Below the pieces are notes generated by a model. That model searched no databases and was not told the origin of the DNA. It worked only from the letters and a program-made list of their open reading frames with translations. Positions 20,402 through 29,417 of a stretch of 64,000 nucleotides of DNA are shown here, one piece after another; positions within the stretch are counted from its first letter, which is position 1, and each line of letters opens with the position of its first letter. The stretch is from Acidobacteriaceae bacterium KBS 83 (GTDB lineage: Bacteria; Acidobacteriota; Terriglobia; Terriglobales; Acidobacteriaceae): contig KB906733.1 in NCBI GenBank assembly GCA_000381585.1, positions 945,378 to 1,009,377 of the forward strand. Reading direction: 5' to 3'. A program made the position numbers and the translations under genes.

Positions 20402-21700
20402 GTGACAATCCCGCAGGCGTTTCCCTTGCACAACCAAACAGAAAGCGGCCGGGCCCTCGCTCGCTTTGCGCCGACGCTGCTACTGCTGTTCATTGCCATT
20501 CTCATCAACTACGTCGACCGCGGGAATCTTTCGGTAGCAGCGTCGCTGGTACAGCAGGTGTGGCATATCTCCTCCTCCAAGCTAGGCGTGCTGTTCTCGG
20601 CGTTCTTCTGGACCTATACCGCGATGCAGTTCTTCAGCGGATGGATGACGGACAAACTGGGCGCAACCCTGGTGATGGGTTTGGGATTTCTCGTCTGGTC
20701 GCTTTCTACGGCCATTTCGGGTCTGGTCTCCGGGATTGCCTTGTTGTTCCTCATGCGACTCATGCTGGGGGTGGGCGAGTCGGTGATGTATCCCGCCTCC
20801 TCGAAGATCCTGGCCGAGCACTTGCCGGAAGAGGCGCGTGGATTTGCAAACGGAGTGATCTGCGCAGGTCAGAAGTGCGGCCCGGCGGTAGGCACACTTG
20901 CCGGTGGGATGCTGATGGCGCGCTACGGCTGGCGCTGGACGTTTCTCTGGATTGGGCTGGTGAGCCTGATATGGGTGCCGGCCTGGTGGCGGTGGGGAGC
21001 GCGCAGTTCCCGCGCAAACTGTGACGACGCAGGGCGCTCCCCGAGTACGGTGGATATCCTGCGGCAGCGTTCCTTCTGGGGAGTCACCTTTGCTGCTCTC
21101 TGCGGGGGTTACGAGATCTACTTCGTTGTGATCTGGCTGCCCCTGTATCTCATGAAAGAAATCCATCTCCCCATGAGAGCGATGGCGCGAGCGGCGGGCG
21201 CCTTCTTCCTGATTGAAGCGGCCTCAGCATTGATTACCGGATGGGTGGCTGATTCGTTAATCCGCGGGGGAAGATCACCGTCGATAGTACGCAAGTCAAT
21301 GATGGCCTTCGGGACCATCATTGCGGCAGCCGGGCTGCTGTTTTGTGCCTTTGCCGGCGCACACGCATATCCATGGGGTCTGGCGCTTACCACCGTGGGG
21401 GGCGGCGTGTTCAGTTCTGGATACTTCACATTCGGCCAGACACTTGCCGGGCCGCTCGCCGCCGGTAGGTGGGTTGGACTGCAAAATGGCCTGACTAACG
21501 TTTCGGGCATCGTCGGACCCGCGGTTACGGGATTCCTTCTCGATCGTACCGGAGGCTTCGCCGTTCCACTGATAGTGACGGCCGCGATGACCCTCATCAG
21601 TGGCTGGGCCTGGGTATTCCTGACAGGTCCGCTGAAGCAGGTGGAGTGGACAAAGATGCCGGCGGCCTCACCCATGGATACGATCAGTCCCGTTGGATGA
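20402..21700 (+). CDS. MFS transporter, anion:cation symporter-like (second of a tandem pair)
   Basis: 432 residues, 12 membrane segments, aligning throughout with the preceding gene: INYVDRGNLSVAAS, RLMLGVGESVMYPASSKILAEHLPEEARGFANG and a near-identical MARYGWRWTFLWIG. It starts at GTG 20402 with AGGA six bases upstream. The two genes look like a tandem duplication that has since diverged, perhaps to different organic acids. Its stop lies nine bases from the stop of the convergent B12-binding gene, with no terminator visible between them. Confidence 0.8.
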   Translation: MTIPQAFPLHNQTESGRALARFAPTLLLLFIAILINYVDRGNLSVAASLVQQVWHISSSKLGVLFSAFFWTYTAMQFFSGWMTDKLGATLVMGLGFLVWSLSTAISGLVSGIALLFLMRLMLGVGESVMYPASSKILAEHLPEEARGFANGVICAGQKCGPAVGTLAGGMLMARYGWRWTFLWIGLVSLIWVPAWWRWGARSSRANCDDAGRSPSTVDILRQRSFWGVTFAALCGGYEIYFVVIWLPLYLMKEIHLPMRAMARAAGAFFLIEAASALITGWVADSLIRGGRSPSIVRKSMMAFGTIIAAAGLLFCAFAGAHAYPWGLALTTVGGGVFSSGYFTFGQTLAGPLAAGRWVGLQNGLTNVSGIVGPAVTGFLLDRTGGFAVPLIVTAAMTLISGWAWVFLTGPLKQVEWTKMPAASPMDTISPVG

Positions 21701-21709
21701 GCGAGATAG

Positions 21710-22129
21710 TTAGACGATCAGGTCGCGCGGCTTCACGTGTTCGCGGATGAAGGTGACCGTTGCGTCAAGCGAGGTGCCGGGACCGAAGATGGCAGCGACG
21801 CCCTGCTGCTTGAGAAACTCGACGTCCTGCTCCGGAATGGTGCCGCCGACGACCACCAGCACATCGCTGGCGCCTCTCTCTTTGAGCAGCGTCGTGACCC
21901 TGGGCACGATTGCGTTGTGCGCGCCGGAAAGGATACTCAGGCCGACGCAGTCGACATCTTCCTGGAGCGCGGCGTTGACGATCATCTCCGGCGTCTGCCG
22001 CAGACCGGTGTAGATGACCTCCATGCCGGCGTCGCGCAGCGCGCGCGCGATGACCTTGGCGCCGCGGTCGTGACCGTCCAGGCCGGGCTTGGCAACGAGG
22101 ACACGGATGGGTGGGGCAGATTCAGGCAT
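21710..22129 (-). CDS. Free-standing cobalamin (B12)-binding domain protein, methylmalonyl-CoA mutase C-terminal type
   Basis: A 139-residue protein equal to the B12-binding module of methylmalonyl-CoA mutase. It has [19 protein letters not shown] with the D-x-H-x-x-G motif (His20 is the lower-axial cobalt ligand), then [24 protein letters not shown] (the S-x-L motif) and [10 protein letters not shown] (the GG motif). Such separate subunits pair with a catalytic subunit encoded elsewhere in isobutyryl-, ethylmalonyl- or methylmalonyl-CoA mutases. No mutase or MeaB gene is in the window. The start ATG 22129 lacks an SD. It is divergent from the ArsR-type gene. Confidence 0.85.
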
Positions 22130-22181
22130 CGGACGGAGGAGAATATCACAGCCGGTACGGAGGCGCCCGGACCGCCTCGAA

Positions 22182-22199
22182 TCGTTTTCCCGGAAACGA
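22182..22199. promoter_or_regulatory. Inverted repeat TCGTTT-N6-AAACGA between divergent genes
   Basis: Exact six-base arms separated by six bases, located between the B12-binding gene (start 22129) and the ArsR gene (start 22212). Size and position fit an operator for a dimeric regulator. Its sequence differs from the TTCGA boxes further right. Confidence 0.4.
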
Positions 22200-22211
22200 C
22201 ATCTTTCCGGT

Positions 22212-22511
22212 ATGCGAACGAAGGGCGACAGGTCGAGCGTGATGATGCCAGACGTGCAGTTTCGCGCCATCGGCCGGGCGCTCGCTGACCCGCACCGGTT
22301 CGCCATTCTGCAGCAAGTCGCGGCCGCAGAAGGCATGCCGTGCGCCCGCCTTCAGGAACACGCCGTACTTAGCCCGGCCACAATTTCCCATCACATGAAA
22401 GAACTGAGCGAGGCCGGCCTGATAGACATAACGCGCAAAGGCCGGGATGCCTATCTTTCCCTGCTGAGGCCGGTTTTGGATGCTTACCTCGAACGCCTCG
22501 CCTCGCTCTGA
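22212..22511 (+). CDS. ArsR-family transcriptional regulator
   Basis: About 99 residues (89 if ATG 22242 is used) forming a single winged helix. [20 protein letters not shown] is the ArsR opening, [19 protein letters not shown] the recognition helix, and [13 protein letters not shown] the wing. The metal-binding CxC motif of classical ArsR is absent, so it may sense a small molecule or redox state. The gene points at the first dehydrogenase copy, whose 107-base upstream region holds two TTCGA-N6-TCGAA boxes, the likely targets. Starts 22212 and 22242 are not separable, since both have weak SDs. Confidence 0.8.
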
Positions 22512-22569
22512 ACGCCCGGGGATTTTTCACAGGTGGCATGCTGAATCTATTCTGCAGGCAGCGCATCTG

Positions 22570-22585
22570 TTCGATATACGTCGAA
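22570..22585. promoter_or_regulatory. Operator box 1 (TTCGA-N6-TCGAA) before the first dehydrogenase gene
   Basis: TTCGATATACGTCGAA, a perfect five-base inverted repeat with a six-base spacer. It sits exactly 20 bases (two helical turns) before box 2 and 34 bases before the ATG. A related box lies before the paralogue. Confidence 0.65.
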
Positions 22586-22589
22586 ATGT

Positions 22590-22605
22590 TCGACAGACAT
22601 CGAAG
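22590..22605. promoter_or_regulatory. Operator box 2 (TTCGA-N6-TCGAA) before the first dehydrogenase gene
   Basis: TTCGACAGACATCGAA, the same inverted repeat on the same helical face as box 1, ending 13 bases before the ATG at 22619. A bound repressor here would block initiation. Confidence 0.65.
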
Positions 22606-22618
22606 TGAGGTGGAAGAT

Positions 22619-23368
22619 ATGGCAAAGCTGACAGGGAAGGTAGCCGTGGTGACTGGGGCATCGAAGGGGATCGGCGCCGGGATCGCAAAGGAGCTTGCGG
22701 CACAGGGTGCGTCGGTGGTGGTGAACTATTCTTCGAGCAAAGAGGGCGCGGAGAAGGTAGTTGCGGAGATTACGAAAGCGGGCGGCAAGGCGGTAGCCGT
22801 GGGTGGCAGCGTGGCCAAAGCTGGCGACATCGAGAAGTTGTTTGCCGAAGCGAAGAAAACCTACGGTAAAGTGGACATCCTGGTGAACAACGCGGGCGTG
22901 TATGCATTTGCGCCGCTCGAGGCGATCACAGAGGATGAGATTGACCGGATCTTCGACACGAATGTTAAAGGATTGCTGCTGGCAACGAAGGCCGGTGTGG
23001 CGCTCTTTCCGTCGGAGGGCGGCAGCGTCATCAACATTGGGTCGGTAGTCAGCGATTCCACGCCGGTCGCGTCAGCGGTCTATACCGGCACCAAGGGCGC
23101 GGTGGATGCGATCACCCGTGTCTTCGCAAAGGAGTTGGGACCAAAGAAGATCCGCGTGAATGCGGTGAATCCGGGACCGGTAGTGACGGAGGGCTTTAAG
23201 TCTGCCGGCATCGAGGGCAGTGATCTTGAGAAAGGCATGGTCCAGGGCACTCCGCTGGGGCGCCTCGGGCAGCCGGATGATATCGCCAGCGTAGTGGCAT
23301 TCCTGGCCTCGGATGATTCGCGCTGGATCACCGGATCGCTGCTTCAGGCCGCGGGCGGTCTGCGGTAA
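22619..23368 (+). CDS. Short-chain dehydrogenase/reductase (first of two near-identical copies)
   Basis: A 249-residue classical SDR with NAD(P) motif TGASKGIG (12-19), NNAG near 90, and the catalytic Ser, Tyr and Lys in INIGSV and VYTGTK. The C terminus ends ITGSLLQAAGGLR. Such proteins are often labelled glucose 1-dehydrogenase or 3-oxoacyl-ACP reductase, and the real substrate cannot be read from sequence. The start is fixed by GAGGTGG before ATG 22619. It lies behind an ArsR gene with two operator boxes and ahead of a strong terminator. The copy at 26735-27484 is about 90% identical. Confidence 0.88.
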   Translation: MAKLTGKVAVVTGASKGIGAGIAKELAAQGASVVVNYSSSKEGAEKVVAEITKAGGKAVAVGGSVAKAGDIEKLFAEAKKTYGKVDILVNNAGVYAFAPLEAITEDEIDRIFDTNVKGLLLATKAGVALFPSEGGSVINIGSVVSDSTPVASAVYTGTKGAVDAITRVFAKELGPKKIRVNAVNPGPVVTEGFKSAGIEGSDLEKGMVQGTPLGRLGQPDDIASVVAFLASDDSRWITGSLLQAAGGLR

Positions 23369-23388
23369 GGCGCGGTTCCAAGGAAGGA

Positions 23389-23428
23389 GGCCGCGCGCTC
23401 TTGAACGTCGAGCGCGCGGCCATTTTAT
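23389..23428 (+). terminator. Rho-independent terminator after the first dehydrogenase
   Basis: Perfect 12-base stem GGCCGCGCGCTC/GAGCGCGCGGCC with a nine-base loop, then ATTTTAT. A clearly homologous terminator follows the second dehydrogenase copy. Confidence 0.85.
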
Positions 23429-23449
23429 ATTCGTCTGAGGGGCGCTTTG

Positions 23450-24754
23450 CTATGGGGTAAGGCGGTAACGGTCGCGCGGGTAGAGGACTGCCTGACGCAC
23501 GTTTGCGAGGTTCAGTATGCGCGCCGTCAGCCTTTCCAGTCCGATAGCGAAGCCGCCGTGTGGGGGCATGCCCACGTCGAATATCCTGAGGTGGCTTTCG
23601 AAATTAGCGGGCTCGATGCCGCGTGCCCGCATTGCTTCTTCCAATTCGTCACGCCGATGTAGCCGCTGGCCCCCAGTCGTGACCTCAATACCTTCAAAGA
23701 GCAGGTCGAAGCTGCTGGCTGCTCCGCTGCTGCCTCTTGGAGCCGTATAAAACGGGCGTGCCGCGAGCGGAAATCCCAAAACGAAGACAGCGGCTGCCCC
23801 GGTCTTCTCCTGCGCGAGCCGGCATAACTGTCTCTCCGCTTCCGGATCCAGGTCATCGACGAGGTCCGTGCGCTGAAAGTGCTCCTTCAACATTTCCAGA
23901 CACTCAGCGAACTCCCAGCAGGGAACGTCGAGCATTCGGGGAAGAGCGGCGGCCCGGTGTGCGAGCAGGACTGACGCGTAACTCTCATTCAGCCGGGCGA
24001 AGATGAAATCCAGGAGCTCGCGTTCCAACTGAATGACATCCTCGGGACCATCAATGAATCCGAACTCGACGTCGAGCGAGTAGTACTCCGTAAGGTGGCG
24101 GCTGGTGGCATGCGGCTCAGCGCGATAGACATGACCTGTTTCGAAGACCCGTTCGAAGCCGGCCACCGTTTGTTCTTTATAGAATTGCGGACTCTGTGCC
24201 AGGTATGCGACGCGGTCGAAATACTTCAGTTGGAAGAGATTTGTTCCGCCCTCCGTTCCGGACGAGACGATCTTCGAAGTGACGATCTCCGTGAAGTGAT
24301 GTGCAGTGAGGAATTCCCGAAAGAACCGCAGCAGAGCGGCCTGCACTCGGAAAATATCGCCAATCGAGTTATTGCGCAGGGCGAGCGGACGATACTCCAG
24401 CTGAACCTCCTGCCCGATGGATTCAAGATCTGTGGCTGCAGTGAACGGCAGGTTATGGCCGCAACGGTTCAATATTCGAATTTCGAGGACATCGACTTCG
24501 ATCCCTGATTTTGCGCGCTCGTCACGGCGCGTTAGGCCATGCACTTCGACGACATCTTCCGTTTTGAGATGAAGCTCGCGCAGCGCTTCGGACGCTGCGA
24601 CACACTGCAATTCACCTGAGCAGTCTTTCAGAATGACGAAAGTAGTCTTGCCAAGTACGCGGAGCCGGGAAATCCATCCGCGAAGGAGGACCGGCTTCAG
24701 AATGTGTTCAGGAAGAGATCGAATGAAAATGCGCTGGCTCGCCTTCTCGTGCAT
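23450..24754 (-). CDS. aspS: Aspartyl-tRNA synthetase, archaeal (probably non-discriminating) type
   Basis: A 434-residue class IIb synthetase: an N-terminal OB anticodon-binding fold (ILKPVLLRGWISRLRVLGKT) and a catalytic core with TSRHLTEYYSLDVEFGFIDG and the motif-3 GMPPHGGFAIGLERLT near the end. It lacks the large GAD insert of bacterial AspRS and is far shorter (434 versus about 590), which marks the archaeal/AspRS2 type. In other bacteria this form also charges tRNA-Asn with Asp for GatCAB amidation. Start ATG 24754 has GGAGG eight bases upstream, better than the in-frame 24793. It is convergent with the first dehydrogenase gene. Confidence 0.88.
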   Translation of the reverse strand: MHEKASQRIFIRSLPEHILKPVLLRGWISRLRVLGKTTFVILKDCSGELQCVAASEALRELHLKTEDVVEVHGLTRRDERAKSGIEVDVLEIRILNRCGHNLPFTAATDLESIGQEVQLEYRPLALRNNSIGDIFRVQAALLRFFREFLTAHHFTEIVTSKIVSSGTEGGTNLFQLKYFDRVAYLAQSPQFYKEQTVAGFERVFETGHVYRAEPHATSRHLTEYYSLDVEFGFIDGPEDVIQLERELLDFIFARLNESYASVLLAHRAAALPRMLDVPCWEFAECLEMLKEHFQRTDLVDDLDPEAERQLCRLAQEKTGAAAVFVLGFPLAARPFYTAPRGSSGAASSFDLLFEGIEVTTGGQRLHRRDELEEAMRARGIEPANFESHLRIFDVGMPPHGGFAIGLERLTARILNLANVRQAVLYPRDRYRLTP

Positions 24755-25114
24755 AGCAAAAACCTCCGTTATGGAGAATTTCGCTGGAGCCACGGTGGCG
24801 GCGGTACCATCCAGCTTCCGGCAGGGCGCCGGCGCTTGATTCGGCGTTATGTCGTAACGAACGTTTCCCGCTACTAGGGCCTGCTATTCAGCTTCCTTTT
24901 TGCGGGAACCTCTTAGAGGGGTCTGTCCTCGTCGACGAGTTGTCTCTATGCTGCCATCATGTACTCCGAAAGACAAGGTGCGTGTAGCGTGGTCGAGCAA
25001 CCAGCGCTGGTGTCGAGTCGCGCCGGTAATGGAGCACAAGCCGATAAGATTCTGCATGCAAGCTGGTGCACGTCCGGTTCAGATTGGTGCCAAACGCCTG
25101 TCTGATCATGTCAG
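24755..25114. other. Intergenic region, no gene recognised
   Basis: 360 bases upstream of aspS and downstream of the PQQ-repeat gene, less GC-rich than its flanks. Apart from the aspS ribosome-binding site at the left end I see no RNA gene, strong hairpin or convincing coding frame. Confidence 0.4.
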
Positions 25115-26443
25115 TTATTGGAGCGCGTAGAGGCTGCCGTCGGCGCTTCCGACATAAACCACGTTGCCGGAAATAACGGGCGAAGACAGGATCGTCCCGA
25201 CAGCGTGCATCTTGCCGATGCCAACGAGCATGTCGTCGTAGAAATTTGAAACAAAGGCGGCCTCGTAGTTAGGTTTGCCGTCGCTCTTCGAGAGCGCGGC
25301 GAGATTCCGGCGCGAGCCTTCTGTTTGGAACACCCAGGCGGATTTCCTGGTCATCAGATCGATGGCGACCAATTTGCCATCCTGTCCAGCTACATAGAGC
25401 GTGTTGCCTGCGATCGAGGGGGAGCTGAAGATCGGCCACTGGTAATTGAGAGTATCGATGGGCGCGCCGGTCTGCGCGTCCACCACGTGCAGAAGCGCCG
25501 TGTCGGACGTAGCGAAGTAGACTTTGCCCTCATGCACGACAGGTGAGGTGATAACCCAGGATCCCTTGTTGGCAAAGACCCATCGTTGCTTTCCCGATGC
25601 AGCGTCCAGCGCGTAGAAGTTGGAATCGCGGCAACCGAAGTAGACGACGCCGCTCGCCACAGTAGCCGAAGACTGGATGCCGACCTGATTGTGAATGTCG
25701 GGGTCCTCTCCGGTTTTGAAGCGCCACACCTGCTTTCCAGTGGAGGCGTCCAGTGCATAGAAATGACTGTCCCAACTCCCTACGTAAAGTTTGCCATCGA
25801 CGATGGCGGGCGACGCGTGCACGACGTCACCAGTCTGAAACTTCCACTTGAGCGAGCCACTGGCGGCATCGAGGGCATAGATATTGCCGTCACCGCTGCC
25901 GAAGTACACGGCGCCACTCCAAAACGAGGGCGAGGAGAGATAAACGTCGAAAGGGTCGGGCATCGTTTCGCCTGTGGGAAGCGAACCATGCAGATGAGTT
26001 GCCGCATAGCGGCGCTCGCCTGCATTACGGAATTTCCATCGCAGTTTTCCAGTGACAGCATCCACAGCGTAGAAGTTGCCGTCGTAGCTGCTGAAATAGA
26101 CCAGGCTATTGGCGACAGCCGGTGACGAAGCGACGCGGGCTGTGGTGGAGAAATTCCACTTTTCAGAGCCTGTCTGCTGGTCAATCGCGTAGAGCTTCCC
26201 GTCATTACTGCCCACGTAGACGATGCCGCCGACGATGGCGGGCGAAGAGACGACTTCCCCTTGCGTGTGGAAAGCCCATTTGACGCCATTCAGTCTCGGC
26301 ACTCCGGCAGCGGCGTAGACGCCGGAGTGAGTAAGATCGTTGCGGAACATAGGCGTGTCCTGCGCAAAGGCGAATGAGCAGGAAAGAAAAATCGGCAAGA
26401 GAGAACGAAGCAGCTTTCGCACGTGCGACCCGTCTGGTTTCAT
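25115..26443 (-). CDS. Secreted PQQ-repeat (BamB/quinoprotein-like) beta-propeller protein
   Basis: 442 residues: a signal peptide (KLLRSLLPIFLSCSFAFAQ) and at least seven PQQ-type blades with the repeat W-x-F-x-T-G, S-S-P-A-I-V-x-G-x-V-Y-V-G-S-x-D-G-x-x-Y-A-L-D-A. These are the blades of BamB and quinoprotein dehydrogenases. No haem-binding CxxCH and no clear PQQ-ligand Asp/Glu pair were seen, so it is more likely a structural or binding propeller than an alcohol dehydrogenase. Start ATG 26443 is chosen by the signal peptide, with a weak SD. Confidence 0.8.
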   Translation of the reverse strand: MKPDGSHVRKLLRSLLPIFLSCSFAFAQDTPMFRNDLTHSGVYAAAGVPRLNGVKWAFHTQGEVVSSPAIVGGIVYVGSNDGKLYAIDQQTGSEKWNFSTTARVASSPAVANSLVYFSSYDGNFYAVDAVTGKLRWKFRNAGERRYAATHLHGSLPTGETMPDPFDVYLSSPSFWSGAVYFGSGDGNIYALDAASGSLKWKFQTGDVVHASPAIVDGKLYVGSWDSHFYALDASTGKQVWRFKTGEDPDIHNQVGIQSSATVASGVVYFGCRDSNFYALDAASGKQRWVFANKGSWVITSPVVHEGKVYFATSDTALLHVVDAQTGAPIDTLNYQWPIFSSPSIAGNTLYVAGQDGKLVAIDLMTRKSAWVFQTEGSRRNLAALSKSDGKPNYEAAFVSNFYDDMLVGIGKMHAVGTILSSPVISGNVVYVGSADGSLYALQ

Positions 26444-26573
26444 CGCAGAGCAATGAAATCCAATGAAGTGAAGGCTGAGTGTAAAGGCAGTCGCGTGATT
26501 ATACGAGGTGATTGGGATGAACTGACGGGGGTGGGTGATGGGTGCGGATTGTTGACCGCTACTCCCGAGCGAC

Positions 26574-26640
26574 GGACAAAGTCCGGCATCCACAGCAACG
26601 CGCGGCGCTTATCACTCTCTGGCAGGCCGGCGACCAGGGT
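26574..26640 (-). pseudogene. Remnant of a polyprenyl diphosphate synthase 3' end
   Basis: About 67 bases match the last part of the polyprenyl synthase gene at 28446-28510, in the same (reverse) orientation. The first 25 bases are identical and most later differences fall at third codon positions. Translated, it reads LVAGLPESDKRRALLWMPDFV against LVADLPESDERRALLWMPDFV in the intact gene. The frame then runs on into unrelated residues without the original stop. No other part of the gene is visible nearby, so this is a relic left in the intergenic region before the second dehydrogenase. Confidence 0.7.
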
Positions 26641-26666
26641 CGGGCGGTCAAAACTGGTTGAATCGA

Positions 26667-26695
26667 TTGCCGTGACGAAGCATCTTTTCTGTAAA
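26667..26695 (+). promoter_or_regulatory. Candidate sigma-70-like promoter of the second dehydrogenase
   Basis: TTGCCG (26667-26672), a 17-base spacer, then TGTAAA (26690-26695). The -10 is poor but overlaps the degenerate operator box at 26687-26702, which would suit repression. Assignment is tentative. Confidence 0.35.
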
Positions 26696-26702
26696 CGCCG
26701 AA
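26687..26702. promoter_or_regulatory. Degenerate operator box before the second dehydrogenase gene
   Basis: TTCTGTAAACGCCGAA matches box 1 of the first copy at 12 of 16 positions and lies 19 bases before the intact box, against 20 at the first copy. It looks like a decayed version of box 1. Confidence 0.45.
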
Positions 26703-26705
26703 TAA

Positions 26706-26721
26706 TTCGACGTACATCGAA
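26706..26721. promoter_or_regulatory. Operator box (TTCGA-N6-TCGAA) before the second dehydrogenase gene
   Basis: TTCGACGTACATCGAA, a perfect five-base inverted repeat and the counterpart of box 2 of the first copy (TTCGACAGACATCGAA). Both end 13 bases before the ATG. It is presumably bound by the same regulator. Confidence 0.65.
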
Positions 26722-26734
26722 ATGAGGTTGCGAG

Positions 26735-27484
26735 ATGGCAAAGCTGACGGGGAAAGTGGCTGTGGTGACTGGGGCATCGAAGGGGATCGGCGCCGGGATC
26801 GCGAAGGAGCTTGCGGCACAGGGTGCATCCGTGGTGGTGAACTACGCCTCGAGCAAAGAGGGCGCGGAGAAGGTGGTCGCCGAGATCACGAAAGCGGGTG
26901 GCAAGGCCATTGCAGTGGGCGGCAGCGTGGCCAAGGCTGGCGATATTGAGAAGTTATTCGCCGAAACTAAGAAGGCGTACGGCAAAGTGGACATCCTGGT
27001 GAACAACGCGGGCGTGTACGCATTTGCGCCGCTCGAGGCGATCACGGAAGAGGAGATCGACCGCATCTTCGACACCAATGTCAAAGGATTGCTGCTGGCA
27101 ACCAAGGCCGGCGTGGCGCTCTTTCCGCCGGAGGGCGGGAGCGTGATCAACATTGGATCGGTCGCGAGCGAGCAGACGCCTCCGATGTCGGGCGTGTACA
27201 GCGGCACCAAGGGCGCGGTGGATGCGATCACCCGTGTCTTCGCAAAGGAGTTGGGACCAAAGAAGATCCGCGTGAATGCGGTGAACCCCGGGCCGGTAGT
27301 GACGGAAGGCTTCAAGAGCTCGGGCGTTGAGGGCAGCGACTTCGAGAAAAGCATGCTTCAGGGCACGCCGCTTGGGCGACTCGGACAGCCGGACGATGTC
27401 GCGACGGTGGTGGCGTTCCTGGCATCGGACGACGCGCGCTGGGTTACTGGATCGTTGCTGCAGGCCGCGGGCGGCTTGCGCTAA
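26735..27484 (+). CDS. Short-chain dehydrogenase/reductase (second of two near-identical copies)
   Basis: 249 residues, about 90% identical to the protein at 22619-23368, with the same TGASKGIG, NNAG and VYSGTK active-site motifs. Differences cluster around the substrate-side segment after the catalytic serine (SVASEQTPPMSGVYSG versus SVVSDSTPVASAVYTG) and near the C terminus. This could reflect a change in substrate preference. The shared operator box and terminator show that the duplicated unit included its control signals. No ArsR gene accompanies this copy, so the regulator at 22212 may act on both. Confidence 0.88.
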   Translation: MAKLTGKVAVVTGASKGIGAGIAKELAAQGASVVVNYASSKEGAEKVVAEITKAGGKAIAVGGSVAKAGDIEKLFAETKKAYGKVDILVNNAGVYAFAPLEAITEEEIDRIFDTNVKGLLLATKAGVALFPPEGGSVINIGSVASEQTPPMSGVYSGTKGAVDAITRVFAKELGPKKIRVNAVNPGPVVTEGFKSSGVEGSDFEKSMLQGTPLGRLGQPDDVATVVAFLASDDARWVTGSLLQAAGGLR

Positions 27485-27505
27485 GCGACATTTTTCTTTC
27501 GGCTC

Positions 27506-27549
27506 AACGGCCGGGCGTTCTTGCAATCACGGAGCGCGCGGCCGTTTTA
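27506..27549 (+). terminator. Rho-independent terminator after the second dehydrogenase
   Basis: Stem AACGGCCGGGCG/CGCGCGGCCGTT (one mismatch) with a 17-base loop, then TTTATT. It is homologous to the terminator of the first copy but with a looser loop. Confidence 0.75.
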
Positions 27550-27563
27550 TTCTTGCAGCCGAT

Positions 27564-28040
27564 ATGTCTTTAGCAATTCGAGCAGCAGGAGAGCACGACG
27601 TCGCCGGCATGGCGGCACTGCGAGCGCAGACACGGGGAACAGAACCTTACTGGACAGCGCGCATTGGCGGCTATCTCAACGGTGAGCATTCCCCACAGCA
27701 GGCGTTGGCGGAACGCGTGGCGTTTGTTGCGCACGATGGGGACGGGGTGGTCGGTCTCGTCGCGGGCCATCGCACGAAGCGCTTTGGTTGCGACGGCGAA
27801 TTGGAGTGGATCGACGTCGCGAAAGAATGCCGCGGGCAGGGAATCGCCGACGGGCTGATGACTGCGATGATCCAGTGGTTTGTGGAACAAGGAGCGCTGC
27901 GGGTATGCGTGAACGTCGCACCCGAGAATATTCAGGCCTGTCGCCTTTATGCCAGATATGGTGCGGTGCTGCTCAATCCGCAGTGGATGATCTGGAAGGA
28001 CGTAAGCCGTTCCTTAAATAAGCTCGCGGACGGTACTTAG
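27564..28040 (+). CDS. GNAT-family N-acetyltransferase
   Basis: A 158-residue protein with the GNAT fold: LAIRAAGEHDVAGMAALRAQ opening, VAFVAHDGDGVVGLVAGH (beta 2-4), the acetyl-CoA motif A VAKECRGQGIADGLMTAMI (the R/Q-x-x-G-x-G/A loop is CRGQGIA), and ENIQACRLYARYGA near the end. The substrate is unknown. The start ATG 27564 is chosen because the GNAT fold begins there. The frame is open far upstream, but those codons shadow the dehydrogenase gene. Confidence 0.85.
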   Translation: MSLAIRAAGEHDVAGMAALRAQTRGTEPYWTARIGGYLNGEHSPQQALAERVAFVAHDGDGVVGLVAGHRTKRFGCDGELEWIDVAKECRGQGIADGLMTAMIQWFVEQGALRVCVNVAPENIQACRLYARYGAVLLNPQWMIWKDVSRSLNKLADGT

Positions 28041-28195
28041 CCGCCGACTTGCTTGTCACGCATCCAGGCGCAGCAGGCGCTCGCCGTCCGGGTGTTCGTT
28101 GCTCTGGATGATTCGAGGGTCACGGGATTTGTCCGGACCATCGAGTCCAGACCATCCAGTTCCATCGTGCCCGGGATAGACCGATAATTAGGAAT

Positions 28196-28411
28196 ATGGG
28201 ACGGCTGCTGATCTATCTGGGAATATTGTTCATTGTCGCCGGCCTCGTGACCATCGCCCTGGGCCGCATGGGAGTTCCACTGGGACATCTCCCCGGTGAC
28301 ATCACGTACCGCGGCAAGAACGTCTCCGTGTTCGCACCGATCGGGACATCTATTCTGCTCAGCGTTCTGCTCTCGCTTCTGCTGTATGTGATCGCGCGCC
28401 TGCTGCGCTGA
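28196..28411 (+). CDS. DUF2905 small membrane protein (71 aa)
   Basis: Seventy-one residues with two membrane helices (about 4-24 and 48-69) separated by the family's conserved GRMGVPLGHLPGDI and YRGKNVSVFAPI. This pattern defines DUF2905, small inner-membrane proteins of unknown function found across many phyla. AGGA lies just before the ATG at 28196. It is convergent with the polyprenyl synthase gene, 16 bases apart. Confidence 0.85.
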   Translation: MGRLLIYLGILFIVAGLVTIALGRMGVPLGHLPGDITYRGKNVSVFAPIGTSILLSVLLSLLLYVIARLLR

Positions 28412-28427
28412 AGTGCTAGTGGCAGCA

Positions 28428-29417
28428 CTATTTATCCCGCGCAACGACAAAGTCCGGCATCCACAGCAACGCCCGGCGTTCGTCGCTCTCCGGCAGGTCG
28501 GCGACCAGGGCGCGGGCCAGATCGGCGTAGTGGTAGGCGGCGGCGAGTGCGTACTCGACCGACTGGTGCCGTTCGAGGATCGCCAGAATCTCCGGGTGCG
28601 AGACACGCTCGAAGGATTGGTCGGCGAGCACCTGGTCGATAGCGGCGCGTTCGGCCGGGGTGCCGTGCTGGTAGGCGTGGATGACCGGCAAGGTCGCCTT
28701 GCCCTCGCGCAGATCACTTGCGACGGGCTTTCCCAAAGTCTCTTCGTTGGCAGTAAGGTCCAGCACATCATCGACGATCTGGAAGGCGACGCCGAGATTG
28801 CGGCCGTACTCGCCGAGCTGTTCTTCGAGCGCTTCTGCGACTTCGGCAAGCACCGCGCCGAGCCGCATGGAGACCCGGAAGAGGCAGGCTGTCTTGCGAT
28901 AGATGAGATCGTAGTACTCGCCTTCGGAGACCAGACGGCCCAGGGTTTCAGTCTGCAGCAGCTCGCCTTCAACCATCTGCTGGGTGAGGCCGATGAGCAG
29001 GTCGAGCACTTTGAAGTTGCGTTCATCGAGCGCTATCCGAAAGGCCTGCATGTAGAGCCAGTCACCGGCGAGCACACAGCGGGAGTTGCCCCAGGTAGTA
29101 TTGGCGGAGGGCCGGCCGCGCCGGGTGTCGGCCGCGTCGATGATGTCGTCGTGCACCAGTGTGGCGGTATGGACCATCTCCACCACGGCCCCCAGCCGGA
29201 CGCTGCCGCGGCCTCTATAGCCGAGCGCACGAGCCGCCAGCAGCAGCAGCGTAGGCCGGATGCGTTTACCGCCGCCCTCGCGCAGATAGCCTGCAATTTC
29301 GGTGATGGCCTGGACGGAAGAGTCCGAATCGCGCGCGAGCTCCCGCTCTACAGCGCGGAGGTCATCCCGCAGCAGCTCGAACACCTCTTTCGCTGTACCT
29401 ACCGCCTGTGTGCTCAC
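28428..29417 (-). CDS. ispB: Polyprenyl (all-trans) diphosphate synthase
   Basis: A 329-residue class I trans-prenyltransferase extending allylic diphosphates with IPP to make the long chain for menaquinone. The first Asp-rich motif is LVHDDIIDAADTRRG and the second FQIVDDVLD, with GGGKRIRPTLLLL binding IPP. Small residues before the first motif suit a long (C35-C45) product. It supplies the chain used by the MqnP-like enzyme at 1779-2642 and depends on the MEP pathway (dxr here). ispB is used by homology, and heptaprenyl or octaprenyl specificity is not resolved. A fragment of its 3' end is duplicated at 26574-26640. Confidence 0.9.
   Translation of the reverse strand: MSTQAVGTAKEVFELLRDDLRAVERELARDSDSSVQAITEIAGYLREGGGKRIRPTLLLLAARALGYRGRGSVRLGAVVEMVHTATLVHDDIIDAADTRRGRPSANTTWGNSRCVLAGDWLYMQAFRIALDERNFKVLDLLIGLTQQMVEGELLQTETLGRLVSEGEYYDLIYRKTACLFRVSMRLGAVLAEVAEALEEQLGEYGRNLGVAFQIVDDVLDLTANEETLGKPVASDLREGKATLPVIHAYQHGTPAERAAIDQVLADQSFERVSHPEILAILERHQSVEYALAAAYHYADLARALVADLPESDERRALLWMPDFVVARDK

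Follow-up and report, generated by a model that had tools for sequence, protein, structure and literature searches.

Two closely related short-chain dehydrogenase/reductase genes, SDR1 and SDR2, are each preceded by a pair of inverted-repeat boxes of the type TTCGA-N6-TCGAA in the window, i.e. the whole 64-kb stretch of DNA that was analysed. In all probability these boxes are operators of the ArsR-type regulator encoded at 22212-22511, which would repress both SDR1 and its paralogue. This reading was reached by sequence comparison and has five bases: conservation of the box, its fixed spacing, its position, its co-occurrence with the ArsR gene even where the two are unlinked, and the restriction of the double box to these two promoters in the whole genome. 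Binding and repression, as well as the promoter and the signal discussed below, are inferred. The features concerned are collected in Table 1.

Table 1. Features of the window that bear on the predicted ArsR-SDR switch
Feature	Position	Strand	Basis and remarks
ArsR/SmtB-type winged-helix regulator, 99 aa, proposed repressor	22212..22511	+	Pfam and NCBIfam matches, structure model
Promoter-like pair CTGAAT-N17-CATC, directly 5' of box 1	22541..22567	+	positions read; promoter role putative
Box 1, predicted distal operator dyad of SDR1, TTCGATATACGTCGAA	22570..22585	+	motif match; also in nearest relative (L005)
Box 2, predicted proximal operator dyad of SDR1, TTCGACAGACATCGAA	22589..22604	+	19 bp past box 1; 14 bases to ATG
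SDR1, short-chain dehydrogenase/reductase, proposed target	22619..23368	+	'glucose 1-dehydrogenase' PRK07231 subfamily; nearest solved chain 4mow
Box 3, degenerate predicted distal dyad of SDR2, TTCTGTAAACGCCGAA	26687..26702	+	3 half-site mismatches, same 19-bp register as boxes 1 and 2
Box 4, perfect predicted proximal dyad of SDR2, TTCGACGTACATCGAA	26706..26721	+	13 bases to ATG
SDR2, SDR1 paralogue, proposed second target in trans	26735..27484	+	PRK07231 subfamily, protein 91% identical

An earlier note on this DNA had described two perfect boxes before the dehydrogenase gene and a third perfect and a fourth degenerate copy before the paralogue, and all four were found (Table 1). Some details needed correction: the boxes of a pair start 19 bp apart, which is about 1.8 turns at 10.5 bp per turn and not exactly two helical turns, the pair before SDR1 ends at 22604 rather than at 22605, and the distance of 13 bases between box and ATG holds for SDR2 (ATG at 26735) but not for SDR1, where it is 14 bases (ATG at 22619). 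The three perfect copies in the 64-kb window compare with a mean of 0.11 and a maximum of 2 in 100 dinucleotide shuffles, none of which contained three. When up to two mismatches were allowed, the window was not enriched in the motif (26 copies against a shuffle mean of 31.3), so only near-perfect copies are informative.

SDR1 and SDR2 are duplicates with 89% DNA identity (22616-22915 compared with 26732-27031), and their upstream regions align without a gap through both dyads. The likeness of the two promoters might thus be a mere trace of the gene duplication, devoid of function. Such a trace accounts only for the likeness of the two copies in the window, however, and it is contradicted by the relatives: SDRs with as little as 57% protein identity (36% in one locus, L305) also have the box, as do SDRs in Alphaproteobacteria, and we regard this explanation as hardly credible. 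A 65-nt direct repeat (89%) has one copy shortly before SDR2 (26575-26639) and another at 28446-28510, overlapping the end of a gene (28428-29417, minus strand) for a protein resembling polyprenyl diphosphate synthases; the repeat suggests that a rearrangement accompanied the SDR duplication. Between the paralogues lies a tRNA synthetase gene (23450-24793, minus strand), whose product scores above the cut-off for the NCBIfam entry PRK05159, aspartate--tRNA(Asn) ligase. Divergent from the ArsR gene is a gene for a B12-binding, methylmalonyl-CoA mutase C-terminal-type protein (21710-22129, minus strand), and no box with up to two mismatches is present between these two genes.

The genome-wide motif scan proposed in the earlier note gave a divided answer. 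With up to three mismatches, the double box occurs at exactly two places in the 6.25-Mb genome, the two SDR promoters (none for the reversed control), whereas single perfect boxes numbered 14 against 6 for the reversed control. Eleven perfect boxes lie outside the window, six of them within ORFs of 399-570 aa and five overlapping ORFs of 84-222 aa; none is within 5 kb of a listed SDR relative, and on account of this and of their location in ORFs most of them are probably chance occurrences. A perfect box near position 1501 of locus L125 (G000:C5:442787) is part of a longer perfect inverted repeat, GTTCCTTCGATGCGCATCGAAGGAAC, and is probably unrelated. A second ArsR-SDR pair of the genome is located on contig C2 (ArsR 51%, SDR 63% identical), and upstream of it the sequence TTTGACAATCATCGAAATGTCAAA was found, with the pattern TTTGA-N6-TCGAA-N3-TCAAA. 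The generalised form TTNGA-N6-TCNAA-N3-TCNAA has a single match in the genome, at this second pair, and the reversed control also gave one match. The form TTNGAT-N4-ATCNAA was found at seven places (control, none), one of which is a perfect box and none of which is a box of the window.

To follow the boxes in relatives, 79 SDR loci were analysed, taken from the best 80 of 462 matches to the SDR query; an ArsR gene was present nearby in 40 of them (tblastn, E < 1e-6). In the 150 nt upstream of the SDR start, two forms of the box were scored, strict (TTCGA-N6-TCGAA) and relaxed (TTNGA-N6-TCNAA). The relaxed box was present in 33 of the 40 loci with ArsR and in two of the 39 without it (L009 and L011), and the strict box in 17/40 and 1/39, respectively. 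When the upstream sequences of the 40 ArsR-bearing loci were shuffled, on average 0.025 of the 40 contained a strict and 0.25 a relaxed box, and no strict box was found within the SDR genes of these loci. The earlier note had named disappearance of the boxes from relatives that keep the gene pair as an outcome speaking against its interpretation; by this criterion the interpretation was not refuted. Seven of the 40 ArsR-bearing loci lacked a relaxed box, some of them having near-matches, and a third locus without ArsR nearby (L064) contained the partial pattern TCGAA-N3-TCGAA. Boxed loci belonged to Acidobacteriota and to Alphaproteobacteria (Kaistia, Labrys and Methylocapsa), the Kaistia boxes reading TTAGA..TCTAA. 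In two Methylocapsa loci (L050 and L060) the ArsR gene is downstream of the SDR gene and a strict box still stands before the SDR; in a Methylocella locus (L034), where the ArsR gene is also downstream, no relaxed box precedes the SDR. When ArsR and box were mapped on the SDR tree (79 rows), three supported independent contrasts were obtained, too few for adequate power, and the result was not significant; the loci with and without ArsR are therefore not phylogenetically independent contrasts.

Variation of the spacer between N0 and N16 in the same 79 loci (from the best 80 of 462 matches) gave strict matches only at N6 (18) and N14 (6), the latter being due to a third half-site described below. 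In 110 SDR upstream regions from genomes of the order, the corresponding numbers were 35 for N6, 14 for N14, 3 for N10 and 1 for N15, with no matches at other lengths.

These 110 upstream regions came from a set of 120 genomes, which overlaps the 79 loci and is not independent of them. With a profile of 18 ArsRs (E <= 1e-18; absence means that there was no such match) ArsR was found in 63 of the 120 genomes, and the SDR in 65 (E <= 1e-75). The relaxed box preceded 38 of the 47 SDRs with an ArsR-type match within 1.7 kb, the other nine including some with near-matches; it also preceded 24 of 53 SDRs situated away from ArsR in ArsR-bearing genomes, and none of the 10 SDRs of genomes without ArsR. 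As 29 of the 53 ArsR-distant SDRs are unboxed, the box marks only some paralogues. Counted by genome (64 of the 65 SDR-bearing genomes; G060 was left out, apparently on account of a truncated SDR sequence, although its SDR has a box), a boxed SDR was present in 50/56 genomes with ArsR and in 0/8 without. Even where ArsR is not beside the SDR, 12 of 14 genomes had a boxed SDR, compared with none of the eight ArsR-less genomes (Fisher 1.4e-4). The same pattern was seen within genera: 26/27 against 0/3 genomes in g4, and 5/5 against 0/1 in g7. Six ArsR-bearing genomes had no relaxed box (G032, G037, G045, G047, G059 and G079), and near-matches such as TTCGATAGTCATTGAA were present in some of them. 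It may be that the SDRs of the genomes without ArsR are not orthologues but paralogues. The genome counts support the claim of the earlier note that shared motif, spacing and position point to real regulation.

A 20-nt consensus derived from the boxed SDR loci, TTNGAYNNTTRTCGAANTRT, was used to scan the 120 genomes in full, a procedure that presupposes no location of the box. There were 27 matches, distributed over 25 genomes, and none of the reversed pattern. In 26 of the 27 cases an SDR gene starts 21-82 bp further downstream, and all the matching genomes carry ArsR (25/63 with ArsR, 0/57 without; Fisher 5.9e-9). The genome of the window itself has no match to this stricter consensus. Behind the 27th match, in locus L324, the directly following gene encodes a DinB_2 protein, which matches mycothiol S-transferase just under the Pfam cut-off, hinting at thiol chemistry. 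In L305 the boxed SDR, the 36% identical relative of SDR1 mentioned above, is followed by a DinB_2 gene.

The 43 ArsR genes of SDR loci, that of the window included (two of the 43 lie outside the family), have no relaxed box within 130 nt upstream, and autorepression of the window ArsR through the same operator was rejected on these grounds. One ArsR-SDR locus of the 120-genome set, L154 (G024), has a relaxed box just before the ArsR gene. Of the 17 lowest-scoring ArsR matches (L197-L213), 12 have a relaxed box a short distance ahead of the ArsR gene. The neighbour on the far side was checked by Pfam in three (L199, L201 and L213), where it is an AcrB/AcrD/AcrF-type pump; in L197 and L212 a distant SDR of 38-39% occupies this place. 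The box therefore seems to be tied to the regulator and not to a single target. Where no SDR was present within 1.5 kb, ArsR genes were mostly unboxed, and the SDR elsewhere in such genomes was usually boxed; several of these ArsR genes adjoin what we take, by eye, to be a ribosomal protein L17 gene. At two loci (L176, at 1815, and L177, at 1816) a strict box directly follows an ArsR gene although no SDR adjoins it, possibly as a relic of a lost SDR.

The link between box and ArsR rests on comparison of sequences, and the box might instead be bound by another regulator, for example of the TetR or MarR type, that merely co-occurs with ArsR. The SDR family does change regulators: in Mucilaginibacter and others a different element, GGAACGA..TTCC, was recognised by eye, and in Mucilaginibacter SDR relatives without ArsR (e.g. 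L035, L045 and L048) it is repeated upstream and is apparently the operator of another regulator. A different binding protein is, however, rather improbable for the box described here, which accompanies ArsR when the two are linked with ArsR upstream, in two of the three loci with ArsR downstream, and when they are unlinked, and which is shared by ArsR relatives with other neighbours, AcrB-type pumps included.

The fine structure of the predicted ArsR operator was derived from 90 distinct boxed upstream regions, which gave the consensus CATCAA-TTcGAY-N4-RTCGAA-aTRTcgAa. At the positions free of selection by the search pattern, position 5 was C or T and positions 10 and 18 were A or G in 90/90 upstream regions, which are not independent by descent. 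The second and the third half-site together constitute an 8-bp direct repeat. Five pairs of boxes at the 19-bp distance were found among the 110 upstream regions. The distance from box end to ATG is 11-17 bases in 14 of the 90, as in the window, and 25-54 bases in the remaining 76. A TGAAT element is found at -30 to -28 from the box in 41/90 boxed upstream regions, and CATC at -6 in 49/90; judged by their placement, these elements may constitute a core promoter immediately preceding the predicted operator. In a sigma-70 scan SDR1 had a single weak match nearby, and SDR2 had none.

Since the double box is self-complementary and stands just before the start codon, a function at the RNA level, as a 5' UTR hairpin or attenuator, was also considered. 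The predicted RNA fold of 22560-22640 was no more stable than that of shuffled sequences (z -0.41), and no Rfam family reached its gathering score in 21000-28500. Both the letters of the half-sites and their spacing vary little, in part as a result of the pattern used for selection, and the occurrence of the box depends on ArsR. Taken with these observations, an RNA element appears extremely unlikely.

Covariation between the recognition helix and the half-site was examined in 52 rows; L154, the rows L011 and L075 with ArsR matches outside the family, rows with Ser55 and rows with T at the tested base were left out. Pro55 was associated with TTCGA in 25 of 26 rows with Pro, and Ala with TTAGA in 16 of 26 rows with Ala (raw Fisher 1.3e-5 for Pro/Ala against half-site C/A). 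On the tree there were too few independent contrasts, without significant independent support, and other columns had higher mutual information, so this covariation was discarded as support.

The regulator of the window belongs to the ArsR/SmtB family by fold and by profiles. It scored 50.1 bits with HTH_20 (cut-off 27), 26.2 with HTH_5 (cut-off 22) and 59.7 with NCBIfam HTH_metalloreg (cut-off 55). Its AlphaFold model, built with an alignment of 18 sequences, has a mean pLDDT of 84.9, and in a comparison with the PDB ArsR-type regulators came out on top (6j05: Z 14.2, rmsd 1.7, 87 residues aligned). Assignment to the SdpR autorepressor family was rejected (NCBIfam NF033789, 43.4 bits, cut-off 100). 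The metal site usual in ArsR/SmtB metalloregulators is either a cysteine pair or CxC motif of helix 3 or a site made up of His/Asp/Glu residues of helix 5. The window ArsR has a single cysteine, Cys44, which is invariant across the 18 aligned ArsRs, and its C-terminal helix contains no His; it was therefore not classed as a metalloregulator, and a metal is unlikely to be its signal. A thiol-based signal is plausible by analogy. The leading candidate, put forward tentatively after the example of RexT, would be oxidation or alkylation of Cys44.

RexT and four other published systems were used for comparison, each as described in excerpts of the papers cited. RexT is an ArsR-SmtB sensor of H2O2 in Nostoc; it senses through a Cys40-Cys41 pair, controls thioredoxin and recognizes the site ATTCG-N15-CGAAT (PMC8960804). 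Like the window ArsR it is a winged-helix ArsR without a metal site (7txm: Z 11.1, rmsd 2.5, 84 residues aligned; phmmer E 1.2e-4), Cys44 aligns with its Cys40, and its half-sites ATTCG/CGAAT, in that excerpt, resemble the TTCGA/TCGAA of the window. It differs by the cysteine pair, as opposed to one cysteine, and by its thioredoxin target, as opposed to an SDR; the spacing equivalent to that of RexT, TTCGA-N13-TCGAA, was not found in strict form in any of the 79 loci (from the best 80 of 462 matches) or of the 110 upstream regions. CyeR of Corynebacterium, known to us by its description in the same paper, is an ArsR-type regulator of an oxidoreductase gene that is inactivated via one cysteine, equivalent to Cys41 of RexT, and its target is an old yellow enzyme (PMC8960804). 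PyeR, another repressor of the ArsR family, controls an operon that includes an oxidoreductase gene (xenB) and is linked to HOCl protection, but it autorepresses its three-gene operon (PMC7950407). The consensus of the ArsR/SmtB regulator NolR, (A/T)TTAG-N9-A(T/A) (PMC12445080, PMC8960804), resembles TTAGA, the half-site in the Kaistia loci and in some others, whereas its second half differs from TCNAA and its targets are nodulation genes.

The SmtB/ArsR 12-2-12 operators are, according to the excerpt of PMC8790569, inverted repeats near the start site that are bound by a dimer of the ArsR family; repeats such as AATACCTGAACA-GA-TGTTCAAGTATT have the form TGA-N8-TCA. The boxes described here share the inverted repeat near the start site with them, but have a GA-N6-TC core accompanied by a third half-site or arranged as a 19-bp double box. 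Classification as 12-2-12 operators was rejected, as TTCGA-Nk-TCGAA occurred only with k=6 and k=14 in the 79 upstream regions (from the best 80 of 462 matches). The excerpt of PMC12423496 contained no operator sequence for comparison.

An exact-sequence search of the open-access literature with six typical spellings of the box returned no paper, and among open-access articles on ArsR together with short-chain dehydrogenases and operators or Acidobacteria none dealt with such a system as judged by title and beginning of the abstract. The earlier designation as a 'new operator code' can thus be kept for the lettering and the layout, of which these searches brought up no previous account, but not for the kind of switch, which was already known; as far as the open-access literature goes, this appears to be a known type of switch in a form not described before. 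It differs from the known ArsR-family operators by the GA-N6-TC core, which replaces TGA-N8-TCA, by the combination of this core with a third half-site or with a second dyad at 19 bp, and, in nearly all SDR loci, by the lack of a site before the regulator's own gene.

In the mechanism that we propose, an ArsR dimer would bind to each TTNGAY-N4-RTCNAA dyad. The window and a few relatives have two dyads 19 bp apart; in many relatives there is instead a single dyad, followed at 8 bp by a third half-site (RTCGAA-N2-RTCGAA). Bound ArsR would repress the adjacent SDR1 and, in trans, SDR2 located 4 kb away; by covering the DNA just downstream of the promoter-like TGAATC...CATC pair it could block initiation or escape of the polymerase.

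A wider picture can be sketched, which we hold with less than even confidence. According to it, a lineage of one-cysteine, metal-independent ArsRs in Acidobacteriota and Alphaproteobacteria would have its own operator code, made up of RTCGAA half-sites in the form of a dyad with a third half-site at 8 bp or of a 19-bp double dyad. It would sense electrophilic or oxidative stress and induce carbonyl-reducing SDRs, in some species together with DinB-superfamily proteins (possible thiol S-transferases), and related ArsRs would use the same code beside AcrB-type pumps.

Acidobacteriota are soil bacteria with few characterised regulators. For an ArsR lineage without the usual metal sites, the boxes provide a predicted operator that can be tested and from which regulons could be predicted by sequence in this phylum. 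The three-half-site and 19-bp layouts and the lone invariant cysteine raise questions on how the dimers bind and what they sense, and the pair of ArsR and box could serve as a compact regulator-operator part in biosensor work.
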